The notes below the pieces were generated by a model that saw only the letters and a list, made by a program, of their open reading frames with translations, searched no databases and was not told the DNA's origin. A stretch of DNA of 64,000 nt from Actinobacteria bacterium 69-20 (GTDB lineage Bacteria > Actinomycetota > Actinomycetes > Mycobacteriales > Nakamurellaceae), in the NCBI GenBank assembly GCA_001897425.1, contig MKSW01000027.1, positions 48,499-112,498 of the forward strand, written 5' to 3'. This document shows, in pieces, positions 26,234 to 30,498 of this stretch (position 1 is its first letter; each line of letters starts with the position of its first letter). The translations under genes were made by a program, and so were the position numbers.

Positions 26234-27038
26234 GCGCTTTCGTTGTGCTGCCGGTGCCGGTGGTGTCACCGGTGCCGCGTGCCTGCTCGGCCTGCCAGGC
26301 GAGCAGCTCGGCGGGCCGGTTGGTGAAGATCCCGTCCACCCCCGCCGCGGTGAGCCCCGCCCATTCGTCCGGTCGGTCGGCGGTCCACGGGATCACGGCG
26401 ATCCCGGCGGCATGAAGCCTGCCCACGAGCCCGGGGTCCGCCAGCACGTCCGGAACACTGGGGTTGTAGGTGATCGCGCCGAGGCGCCTGCAGTCGCCGA
26501 CCGGGTCGGCGCCGATCGTCTCGACGAGAAGGCCGACAGGCTCGTCCGGCAGCAGCGCCCGCACGTGCCGAAGGGCCGGCACCTCGAAGGACTGCAGCAC
26601 CACGCGCCCGCGCGCGTCCGCGACGTCGATGTCGGCGATGATGGCACGGACCTGGTCCTCGGTGTGTTCGCCCTTGATTTCGAGCAGAAGCCTTCGCTCG
26701 CCCGTCATCTCGGCGAGCAACTCGGCCAGCGTCGGGATCCGCACCCCGGCGAACGACGCGCCGAACCAGGCCCCGGCGTCGAGGGCGGCCAGCTCGGTGG
26801 CGGTGTGCGACCGGACATCGCCTCTCCCGTCGGTGGTGCGGTCCACCGCGTCGTCATGGATGAGAACCCTGGCGCCGTCGCGCGTCGGCTGGACATCGGT
26901 CTCCGACCATTGCGCGCCATCGGCCCAACCCCTGCGGAACGCCGCCATGGTGTTCTCCGGCGCGGCGGCGGACGCCCCGCGATGCGCGATGACGATGGGC
27001 GCTGCCCCGTGCCGGAGGAGGGGTTCCCGAGGTGCCAT
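26220..27038 (-). CDS. glycerophosphodiester phosphodiesterase
   Basis: A 272-aa GDPD-family TIM-barrel enzyme that splits glycerophosphodiesters to glycerol-3-phosphate and an alcohol. The family start IVIAHRGASAAAPENTMAAFR holds the catalytic histidine. SETDVQPTRDGARVLIHDD supplies the metal-binding acidic residues and the second histidine. LLLEIKGE and GVDGIFTNRPAEL at the end are typical. There is no signal peptide, so it is cytosolic. ATG 27038 is preferred to the longer frame starting at 27101. The C-terminal tail is Thr/Gly-rich. Confidence 0.92.
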   Translation of the reverse strand: MAPREPLLRHGAAPIVIAHRGASAAAPENTMAAFRRGWADGAQWSETDVQPTRDGARVLIHDDAVDRTTDGRGDVRSHTATELAALDAGAWFGASFAGVRIPTLAELLAEMTGERRLLLEIKGEHTEDQVRAIIADIDVADARGRVVLQSFEVPALRHVRALLPDEPVGLLVETIGADPVGDCRRLGAITYNPSVPDVLADPGLVGRLHAAGIAVIPWTADRPDEWAGLTAAGVDGIFTNRPAELLAWQAEQARGTGDTTGTGSTTKAPTPQ

Positions 27039-27195
27039 GTTCCGGAGGCTACGCCGTCGTCCGGGCGGGCCGCACGGGGCCGCCCATACCTCCGGGATCA
27101 CCGTGATCGCGTCTCATTTCTCACATCCGCGGTGGTCAGGGCCGCGTTTTCGGCTCTATAGGCTAGAAAGGTTGCGTTTGCAGAGGAGGACATGG

Positions 27196-30100
27196 GTGCT
27201 TCGGGATCGGTTGGTCAGCGGCCAGACGACCCTCAGCCGTATGTGGCTCCTCTCGGTGGTCGCCGTGGTCCTCGGCCTCGTCGGCGGCGGCGCGGCCGTC
27301 GGCCTGTTCACGCTGATCAGCCTCATGACGCACCTCACGCTGCTCGGTGATGTCGGCTTCAGCCTGCCGTCGCTGCGCGGGTACCACCCCACGCCGTGGC
27401 TGATCGTGTACGCCGTCGCCGGCGGGCTGATCGTGTCGCTCTTCGCCGCTTGGGCGCCGGTGATCCGCGGCCACGGCATCCCCGAATCGATGGAGGCCAT
27501 CCTCGAACGCGACAGCCGGATCCGTCCGCGTGCCGCGATCGCCAAGCCGCTGTCGGCTGCCGTCACCATCGGTACCGGCGGGCCGTTCGGGGCGGAAGGC
27601 CCGATCATCGTCACCGGGGGATCCGTCGGCTCCCTGCTCGGGCAGCTCTTGTCCGTGTCGCCCGCGGAGCGCAAGATCATGCTCGCGACGGGGGCGGCGG
27701 CCGGCATGTCCGCGACGTTCAACACGCCCATTGCCGCGGTGATCCTCGCGATCGAGCTGGTGCTCTTCGAGCGGTCGCTCCGGGTCATCGTCCCGCTGTG
27801 CATCGCGAGCGGGGTGGCCGCCGCCATCCATGTGGTGGCGTTCGGCTCGGAGCCGCTGTTCATGGTTGCGACGAAGCTGCACGTCAGCCTCGCGCATCTG
27901 CCGTTGTACGTGGTCGTGGGACTCGCCTCCGGGGTGATGGCGATCGTGCTGAACAAGGGCCTGTTCGCCATGGAGGCGGCGTTCCGGCGGCTACCGATCA
28001 ACATCTTCTGGTGGCCTGCGATCGGCGCCCTCGGATTCGCACTCATCGGCCTCGCGGTCCCGCGGACCCTCTCGATGGGCTATTCGGTGATTGTCGACAC
28101 GCTGGCCGGGCGCTTCACCGCGGGCATGCTCGCCGTGCTGCTTGTCGCGAAACTGCTGTCGTGGCTGATCGCCCTGGGATCGCAGACGTCCGGCGGCACG
28201 CTCGCCCCCATGTTCCTGGTGGGTGCCACGATGGGCGCACTCCTCGGCGACGCCGTCAACGCCGTCTTCCCGGGCTGGCACGTCTCCCCAGCCGCGTTCG
28301 CACTGGTCGCCATGGGGGCGACCTTCGGTGCGGCCACCAAGGCGGTCTTCGCGGCGGTCGTCTTCGCGGCCGAAGTCACCGGCGAGTACACCATGTTGAT
28401 CCCGCTCATGATCGGCGCCGGGTTCGCAGAACTGGTTGTCGAGGCCGTGCTCTCCGACCGCATGATGACGGAGAAGCTGTCGCATCGCGGATTCCGGGTG
28501 GAGTTCCGCACGGCGGTCGATGCGCTTCGGACCAGGGTCGCGCGACAGGTGATGCGCGGGCCGGAATGGGTGCGATCGGACGCCGACCTGCAGCGGGCGC
28601 GGAACATGTTGGCGCACTTGGGGATCGACACGATCGCCGTCGCTGATGTCGATGGCCGCTACCTCGGAACGGTGACCTCCGCAGCCCTCGACCATGTCGC
28701 CGCGTCCGCGAATCAGGCTGCCTCGCCGCCGGGTGCCGGCATCGTCGCCGGGGACCTCGCGAGCGGTTCGCTCGACCCGGTGCGGCCGGACGAATACCTC
28801 GCCGAGTCGTTGGAGCGCTTCCTGGCGCATCCGGTGGACGCCCTGCCGGTGGTGCAGGACGGCCGCGTGGTCGGCCTGCTGACGCAGTCCGACCTGATGG
28901 CCGAGCGGTACCGCCGGAGCACGGGCCAGGAGCTTCGGCAGGCGGGTTGGGTCGCGTCCCTCCACCGCATCGTGCCCAGGCCGTCGCGGGGCGAAACCCC
29001 GAAGACGCGCCCGGCGGAGAGCGCCGGGCATACCGCACCGTCGGCACTGCCGAAGGCGTCGTCCACCCCGGTCGCCGTGGATGCGGCGGGAGATCCGCGT
29101 TCGGCGCCGCAGCCCGCGCCGGCGGCGTTCGGCCTGCATCGCGCACGGCATGCCACGCCCCATCGGCTGTTGCCGGTCCCGGCCGACATCACCCCCGGGC
29201 TGGGGCAGTTCGTGCTGTCGGAACGGTCCCGCATCGTCGTCGACTGGGGATCCGCGCAGGCGCGGCCGATTGCCGATGCGCTAGCGCAGCAGCTGCGACC
29301 GGCGACCGGGTTCCGGCTGTCGGTCAGCGACGGCCGCGCCTACCGAGACGACATCAGCCTGTCGCTCGCGCCGATCGACGACCTGCCTCCCGCGGGATGG
29401 GACGAGGGCTACGTGCTGTGCTCCGGCGTCTCCGGAGTCAGTCTCACGGCCCCGTCGCTGCGGGGGTTGAACCACGGCATACAGACCATTCGGCAATTGC
29501 TGCCCGTGTGGATCACCGCCGATCACCGAATGCCCGGGCCGTGGACGATGCCGGCCGTGACGATCATCGACTACCCCCGCCTCGCGGAGCGGACCGTCCG
29601 CATCGACCTGACGTGCCGTGACACTTCTAGTCGCGACATTCCGAGTCGCGACATTCCGAACCGCGACATTCCGCTCGGCGTGTTCCGCACGATCGTCGAC
29701 CGCATCAGTGACTACAAGATCAACAGGGTGAGCCTGCAGCTCCCCGACGGGGTGTGCGAGCCCCCCGCGGACATCGTGGAATACGCCGCGGCACGGTTCA
29801 TCACCGTCGTCGTGGAACCCGGGGTGCCCGCCGGCGCCGGTAGGTCGGCCGACTCCGGTTCCGCGGACGACGCCTCGCGGATCGTGGACGCGAGCGGTGC
29901 GCTCAGCGGCGCGTTGCTGGTGGCTGCGGAACGGGCCTGGTCGCACGCGAGCACTGCGGTGCCCGGACAGGACAGCGGCACTTTCGACCGCCGAGCTGCC
30001 GCCCAGGGCCCGCGGCTCGCCCTGACGGGCACACCGCTGCGGCTGACCGTCGACGCGCCCTGGCGGCTCGACCTCGTGGCGATGCCCGCTCGGGCGCACC

Positions 30101-30498
30101 GGCGGCAAGTCTCGTGGGCGCTCGGCACCCTCGTCGCCCCTGGCTTCGCCGGCGAGCATCTTCGCGTCGTCATCGACTGGGGTGACGGAGTCGCGACTCG
30201 GGGTGCGCTCACCGCGGGTGTGGCCGTCGATGGTCGTCCGGCCCCGTGGTACACGGTCACCGGTGAGCACCGCTACGCCCGACGGGGGACGTATCGCGTC
30301 GCGCTGCTCGCGACCGGGCCGGACGCCGTTCCGGCGCGCGCGAGCGTGGTGATCCACGCGGGTTCGGTCGCCGGGTCGCATCCGCGGCGAACCCCACGGT
30401 CGTCGCTCGATCCGTTGATGACGATCCACGACGGTGCGCCGCAAGGCGCCGGTACGCGCCGATCGGAACCCACCATGGCGGACCCCGCCGTCGACTGA
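27196..30498 (+). CDS. ClC chloride channel/antiporter fused to a degenerate GH20-like and PKD-like tail
   Basis: One uninterrupted frame of 1100 aa. Residues ~15-440 form a ClC channel: GHGIPESME, GTGGPFGAEGPIIV with the gating glutamate, and SGGTLAPMFLVGA. Residues ~445-580 are two CBS-type segments (VRSDADLQRARNMLAHLGIDT and FLAHPVDALPVVQDGRVVGLL). From ~655 there is a GH20 N-terminal domain (LLPVPADITPGLGQFVL, LRGLNHGIQTIRQLLP) and the start of a GH20 barrel (DYPRLAERTVRIDL, DYKINRVSLQL, YAAARFITVVVEPG). The D-E catalytic region is absent. Near 989 VVIDWGDG begins a PKD-like stretch ending in HRYARRGTYRVALLA. GTG 27196 has AGGAGGA upstream. ClC proteins end on the cytoplasmic side, so the glycan-like domain is in an unexpected compartment. 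The channel call is secure; the role of the tail is unknown. Confidence 0.85.
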   Translation: MLRDRLVSGQTTLSRMWLLSVVAVVLGLVGGGAAVGLFTLISLMTHLTLLGDVGFSLPSLRGYHPTPWLIVYAVAGGLIVSLFAAWAPVIRGHGIPESMEAILERDSRIRPRAAIAKPLSAAVTIGTGGPFGAEGPIIVTGGSVGSLLGQLLSVSPAERKIMLATGAAAGMSATFNTPIAAVILAIELVLFERSLRVIVPLCIASGVAAAIHVVAFGSEPLFMVATKLHVSLAHLPLYVVVGLASGVMAIVLNKGLFAMEAAFRRLPINIFWWPAIGALGFALIGLAVPRTLSMGYSVIVDTLAGRFTAGMLAVLLVAKLLSWLIALGSQTSGGTLAPMFLVGATMGALLGDAVNAVFPGWHVSPAAFALVAMGATFGAATKAVFAAVVFAAEVTGEYTMLIPLMIGAGFAELVVEAVLSDRMMTEKLSHRGFRVEFRTAVDALRTRVARQVMRGPEWVRSDADLQRARNMLAHLGIDTIAVADVDGRYLGTVTSAALDHVAASANQAASPPGAGIVAGDLASGSLDPVRPDEYLAESLERFLAHPVDALPVVQDGRVVGLLTQSDLMAERYRRSTGQELRQAGWVASLHRIVPRPSRGETPKTRPAESAGHTAPSALPKASSTPVAVDAAGDPRSAPQPAPAAFGLHRARHATPHRLLPVPADITPGLGQFVLSERSRIVVDWGSAQARPIADALAQQLRPATGFRLSVSDGRAYRDDISLSLAPIDDLPPAGWDEGYVLCSGVSGVSLTAPSLRGLNHGIQTIRQLLPVWITADHRMPGPWTMPAVTIIDYPRLAERTVRIDLTCRDTSSRDIPSRDIPNRDIPLGVFRTIVDRISDYKINRVSLQLPDGVCEPPADIVEYAAARFITVVVEPGVPAGAGRSADSGSADDASRIVDASGALSGALLVAAERAWSHASTAVPGQDSGTFDRRAAAQGPRLALTGTPLRLTVDAPWRLDLVAMPARAHRRQVSWALGTLVAPGFAGEHLRVVIDWGDGVATRGALTAGVAVDGRPAPWYTVTGEHRYARRGTYRVALLATGPDAVPARASVVIHAGSVAGSHPRRTPRSSLDPLMTIHDGAPQGAGTRRSEPTMADPAVD
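29616..29675 (+). repeat. four 15-bp in-frame tandem units in the GH20-like part
   Basis: Units of 15 bp repeat four times (the first degenerate, then CGCGACATTCCG-based), giving CRDTS-SRDIP-SRDIP-NRDIP in the protein. They sit just where GH20 enzymes carry the conserved Arg-His substrate-binding loop after the first barrel strand, so the expansion replaces that loop. Confidence 0.8.

Follow-up and report, generated by a model that had tools for sequence, protein, structure and literature searches.

A predicted CBS-type ClC anion transporter extended by the non-catalytic remains of a GH20-PKD hexosaminidase in two Nakamurella-type bacteria

Introduction

ClC proteins form dimers that keep their CBS domains in the cytoplasm, and removal of a segment distal to CBS2 alters the gating of CLH-3b from Caenorhabditis elegans (PMC5362633). 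Extra cytoplasmic domains behind CBS2 are likewise found in the ClC-CBS-TrkA_C proteins of two genomes (L108 in G982 and L110 in G793; Pfam TrkA_C E 2.7e-12), a further case of ClCs gaining cytoplasmic modules. In the solved structures of GH20 enzymes, a GH20b domain stabilizes the catalytic domain and packs on an extra C-terminal helix (PMC4449183).

Here, we describe a gene from a 64,000-nucleotide stretch of DNA of Actinobacteria bacterium 69-20 (the window) in which a ClC and the remains of a GH20 enzyme are encoded in a single frame. The building blocks of this fusion are ordinary and its architecture is unusual. A ClC with a cytoplasmic appendage is already a known kind, but TrkA_C belongs to the common ligand-binding domains of the cytoplasm, whereas the GH20b and PKD domains of the window fusion are normally parts of extracytoplasmic enzymes. 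The fusion gene is neither an assembly artifact nor a decaying pseudogene.

Organization of the fusion gene

The frame at 26470-30498 (+) is uninterrupted, and the probable start of the fusion gene within it is the GTG at 27196, giving a product of 1100 amino acids with the stop codon ending at 30498. Starts further upstream, as far as 26470, were rejected because they would overlap the opposite-strand GDPD gene and a good Shine-Dalgarno sequence precedes 27196. Antisense open reading frames in this GC-rich region were dismissed as chance; of the 79 substitutions that separate residues 655-1100 from their counterpart in a second species (see below), 47 occupy third codon positions of the + frame (p 1.7e-6). 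The encoded domains follow in the order ClC, CBS pair, Pro/Ala-rich linker, GH20b, stripped GH20 barrel, and PKD-like domain. The single 1100-codon ClC-CBS-GH20-PKD-like frame of the original prediction is thus borne out by the open frame itself, by the Pfam matches, and by conservation of the frame in the second species. The gene, its ClC portion, and the gene that follows it are laid out as follows:

27182..27189 (+), Shine-Dalgarno sequence AGAGGAGG, 6 nt 5' of the GTG at 27196, read directly from the sequence
27196..30498 (+), gene of the fusion (1100 codons and a stop), an open frame whose counterpart in the second species is spread over two contigs
27421..28440 (+), ClC membrane domain, residues 76-415 (Pfam Voltage_CLC, PF00654, E 9.3e-80; PDB alignment)
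28543..28908 (+), CBS pair, about residues 450-571 (Pfam CBS, PF00571, two stretches, E 9.7e-13; AcuB CBS match over 450-569)
28909..28995 (+), native ClC C-terminal tail with the RQ-x-GW motif (W585), defined by the ClC relatives L133, L134, L136, L135, and L099-L101
30562..31581 (+), SLAC1/TehA-family anion channel gene (Pfam PF03595, E 8.6e-40), 63 bp downstream of the fusion and in the same order in the second species

The Voltage_CLC domain is complete, covering profile positions 1-345 of 346. At the positions of the external gating Glu, the central Tyr, the internal proton Glu, and the Ser of GSGIP, the window protein has the gating Glu (GAEGP) and the Tyr (GEY), aligned with GREGP and DNY of EcClC, together with a Leu (AIEL) replacing the proton Glu of Cl-/H+ exchangers (E203 in EcClC) and a His replacing the Ser (GHGIP). 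The Leu leaves membership in the ClC family untouched and matters for whether the protein is an exchanger or a channel, and the top PDB match of this part, the EcClC mutant chain 3ejz, has Val at the E203 position. The ClC subgroup to which the window domain (27421-28440) belongs has GHGIP in place of GSGIP and Leu for the proton Glu. Residue roles were assigned in part from PMC5362633. Judged by its sequence, the encoded protein is a predicted CBS-type ClC anion transporter or channel.

The closest unfused proteins are 2 actinobacterial CBS-ClC orthologues (L133 in G061 and L134 in G129), 67-69% identical to the window protein over the ClC domain, CBS pair, and RQ-x-GW tail, followed by relatives in G801 and G759 with about 50% identity over the same parts. 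Unfused orthologues end about 5-70 amino acids past the RQ-x-GW motif, and no GH20 sequence was found in the DNA flanking L133 and L134. Of the arrangement that the original prediction had considered for orthologues, a stop codon followed by a separate GH20 gene at this place, the stop is therefore present and the separate gene is not, and the sister species has the fusion.

With the downstream SLAC1/TehA gene, members of two anion channel families that are unrelated to each other stand in tandem, in the window as in the second species. Co-transcription of the two genes is possible, and retention of the SLAC1-family gene 63 bp 3' of the fusion in both genomes hints at a shared role in anion transport.

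The fusion in a second species

The second species is represented by Nakamurella sp. MAG HJP_bin23 (JAFIHI01; hereafter, G003), of the same genus as the window genome and independently assembled. The 2 genomes have in common the gene order TrmA-GDPD-ClC, followed by the GH20 part, SLAC1, OmdA, and aldehyde dehydrogenase. In G003, the contig with the ClC runs out at about window position 28889 with the frame still open, and the contig with the GH20 part begins at W585, the GW-motif Trp (window position 28948), and continues in frame into the GH20 part. The gap between them amounts to 58 bp (about window positions 28890-28947), lies between CBS2 and the GW motif, and corresponds to a stretch that belongs to the coding sequence in all ClC relatives seen from this subgroup. 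Because the orthologues end soon after the GW Trp, the stop expected of an unfused ClC falls in a stretch of G003 that is covered and open. Although joined across 2 contigs rather than read from a single one, this sequence evidence argues strongly that G003 carries the fusion too. The large deletion within the GH20 part, described below, is also common to both genomes.

The GH20-derived part

The region behind the native ClC tail can be divided into the following segments:

28996..29160 (+), linker rich in Pro and Ala (residues 601-655) that evolves neutrally, has no hydrophobic stretch, and shows a 15-nt in-frame indel between the species
29164..29574 (+), GH20b domain, residues 657-793 (Pfam Glyco_hydro_20b, PF02838, E 2.4e-16; PDB 4c7d, E 7.7e-25)
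29581..29850 (+), kept start of the GH20 barrel (beta1, beta2, alpha2, beta3), from alignment with GH20 enzymes of G152, G134, G015, and G034
29851..29898 (+), site of the large deletion, with about 230 barrel residues gone, including H-x-G-G-D-E (BLAST blocks, alignment)
29899..30060 (+), last barrel helix plus extra helix (AERAWS...AAQGPRLALTG), from the alignment
30064..30387 (+), PKD-like domain (residues 957-1064) containing WGDG, which aligns collinearly with the C-terminal domains of G152 L085 and two G015 enzymes
30388..30498 (+), C-terminal tail, whose last 31 residues are identical in G003 despite six synonymous nucleotide changes

Homology to GH20 enzymes begins at HRLLPVP (about residue 656), where the mature secreted enzymes start, and no signal peptide precedes GH20b (the 17-residue mean hydropathy reaches at most 0.42 in residues 575-665). 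The GH20b domain is shared with the hexosaminidases of Streptomyces coelicolor and S. plicatus (PDB 4c7d and 1hp4, the latter matching at E 9.2e-24), which, unlike the window remnant, are active and have a complete barrel. The best unfused relative is a secreted GH20-PKD protein, G152 L085 (774-codon frame), which has the same order of GH20b, barrel, last helix, and PKD-like domain and is 39-45% identical over GH20b; it has a start that resembles a signal peptide, the complete PF00728 domain (E 8.6e-67), and an HLGGDE motif, none of which is present in the window version. The "N-terminal GH20 domain" of the original prediction is accordingly a recognizable GH20 domain (PF02838), but the accessory GH20b rather than any catalytic part. 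Similarly, the label "PKD-like" is supported by a collinear alignment with the homologous last domain of G152 L085, but a Pfam PKD profile matches nowhere in the window protein, and the homologous domain of G152 L085 itself scores below threshold (PF00801, 18.7 bits versus a cut-off of 23.5).

The barrel has lost its active site. BLAST blocks that are 276 residues apart in a full GH20 enzyme are 45 apart in the window, the figure of about 230 missing residues counting the large deletion and a shortened loop after beta2 together. In an alignment with five full GH20 sequences, the column of the catalytic D-E pair (H-x-G-G-D-E) is deleted in both the window and G003, and the catalytic model PF00728 finds merely a 24-residue scrap of the window protein (E 0.3). 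An active GH20 enzyme was rejected on these grounds, and the earlier description of a barrel fragment without the D-E region was correct. The barrel retains strands 1-3 and its last helices, largely the portion that packs against GH20b in solved enzymes, and the remnant may fold in this manner. Together with GH20b, it makes up the stabilizing portion of the enzyme, for which no role in sugar binding is known. Structure prediction for the tail was uninformative (pLDDT 32), its alignment consisting of the window and G003 sequences alone.

Within the barrel remnant (29617-29673) lies an in-frame micro-repeat, RDTSS-RDIPS-RDIPN-RDIP, which is 10 residues shorter in G003 and is thus expanding or contracting. 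Elsewhere, the host genome encodes an intact GH20 with HVGGDE and apparently no signal peptide (L023, 1519-3144 in G000:C21), possibly a cytoplasmic hexosaminidase. In G015, of the same genus, three large GH20 proteins (L082, L083, and L084) also contain S-layer homology domains, and one of the three is fused to a GH18 chitinase domain as well.

Selection on the tail

Between the window and G003, dN/dS is lowest for the ClC (0.09 over 563 codons), followed by GH20b (0.17), the PKD-like domain (0.24), the barrel remnant (0.35), and the linker (0.70), and the 2 length differences (15 and 30 nt) are both multiples of three that keep the frame. To gauge constraint, we simulated neutral evolution using the mutation spectrum of synonymous third positions and the 79 nucleotide differences. 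Residues 655-1100 have undergone 26 amino-acid changes versus 54 +/- 3.9 expected without constraint, which rejects a recent pseudogene and argues strongly against a relaxed one. GH20b, the barrel remnant, the PKD-like domain, and the tail each fall under the neutral expectation (p at most 0.0023), with none of the 31 tail residues changed, whereas the linker, with 15 changes versus 16.7 expected, is neutral.

As the degenerate form is common to the window and G003, the two diverged after the active site had been lost; because the deletion is older than the species split, the constraint seen must act on a non-enzymatic role. From this pattern of substitutions, a non-catalytic function of the tail is probably maintained by selection, although selection against misfolding alone could also explain the constraint.

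Distribution

Among 17 genomes of the genus, only the window genome and G003 have the fusion. In 399 genomes of the order, the remaining GH20b matches are separate GH20 frames; large GH20 frames in seven genomes (980-1486 amino acids) were considered as candidate fusions and rejected, as they contain no ClC. Across 297 genomes of the class, a query spanning the ClC/GH20 junction retrieved no further fusion, and apart from G003, no ClC frame longer than 803 amino acids was found in 299 genomes of the order and 397 of the phylum (matches with E below 1e-60). A scan of public genomes returned nothing beyond the G003 record and a PKD match unrelated to the fusion. A literature search, whose negative outcome carries little weight, found no description of a ClC fused to GH20.

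Discussion

We consider it probable that the gene encodes a single-chain CBS-ClC whose cytoplasmic end has been extended by the eroded, non-catalytic remains of a secreted GH20-PKD protein, now a structural or regulatory module. A formerly secreted GH20-PKD hexosaminidase would have become joined behind the ClC, losing its signal peptide and catalytic center. In a ClC homodimer with cytoplasmic C-termini, two copies of the module would lie side by side under the CBS dimer. GH20b and the last helices may make up a compact folded unit in place of the full barrel, and this unit, together with the PKD-like domain, could form a module for structure, assembly, or interaction by which the CBS-controlled transporter is tuned or stabilized, presumably neither binding nor cutting sugar. 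A structural or regulatory cytoplasmic appendage is favored by the cytoplasmic position of CBS domains and by the ability of a segment distal to CBS2 to affect gating. The original alternative, in which a lost stop codon merged two genes, captures the outline but is too simple, as the signal peptide was also lost, a linker of roughly 55 residues intervenes, and the arrangement has been conserved through speciation.

The same remains might instead be a neutral read-through appendage, in which a deletion joined the ClC to a dying GH20 neighbor and the product stays foldable only to spare the transporter, with no function of its own. The degenerate state of the barrel, which has undergone several deletions and carries a repeat insert, the restriction of the fusion to this lineage among those searched, and the intact GH20 elsewhere in the host genome all suit this account. 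We nevertheless regard it as unlikely: constraint extends to the PKD-like domain and to the invariant tail (0/31), although one truncating mutation would shed the whole burden, and the tail came through speciation without a stop or frameshift. An assembly chimera or sequencing frameshift joining two separate genes, as the original prediction had allowed, could be suspected because both assemblies are drafts, of 43 and about 260 contigs, and that of G003 is interrupted at the fusion locus. It is hardly credible, given that the independently assembled species has the same neighbors on both sides and the same frame, that the region of the expected stop is covered and open, and that constraint acts in the fused frame.

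Two further readings concern what the locus produces or senses. An internal start at codon 628 might yield, in addition, a separate cytosolic GH20b-PKD protein, perhaps a partner subunit of the ClC, and a candidate start does occupy the same place in both species (GTG at 29077 in the window, ATG in G003). Yet neither genome has a Shine-Dalgarno sequence ahead of this internal codon, there is no signal peptide, and the ClC lacks a stop, so that the fused protein would be made anyway; we consider this very improbable. A sensor, with the GH20-derived part still binding a GlcNAc-containing ligand in the cytoplasm and gating the ClC, would draw on the GH20 ancestry and on one Arg (residue 799), a substrate contact in the Streptomyces plicatus hexosaminidase, that appears retained in the alignment. 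Against it, the deletion has removed both the D-E pair and the later strands of the barrel, which hold the other contacts, and GH20b has no known sugar-binding role (PMC4449183). Because the signal peptide is missing and little of the sugar site is left, sugar sensing is very unlikely, and the sugar- or muropeptide-sensing module first proposed is not supported, the catalytic and nearly all substrate-binding positions lying in deleted stretches.

If the preferred reading of a structural or regulatory module holds, the locus would present an extracellular enzyme that, minus its export signal and catalytic core, has been kept by selection as an appendage of an ion transporter in the cytoplasm. 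The fusion offers a simple tail on/off test of how cytoplasmic appendages act on a CBS-ClC, and also bears on how bacterial pseudoenzymes arise, the case being based on two genomes.

The vertebrate heavy chains 4F2hc and rBAT offer a loose parallel: these transporter subunits have a GH13 domain without demonstrated enzyme activity and serve stability and trafficking (PMC8537225). By this analogy, the captured hexosaminidase could, tentatively, be an in-cis intracellular regulatory or assembly subunit, a bacterial cytoplasmic counterpart of the vertebrate dead-glycosidase heavy chains. The likeness is one of working principle only, a glycosidase-derived domain without shown activity aiding a transporter; 4F2hc and rBAT differ from the fusion in being GH13-based, extracellular, separate subunits of vertebrates, with no homology to it.
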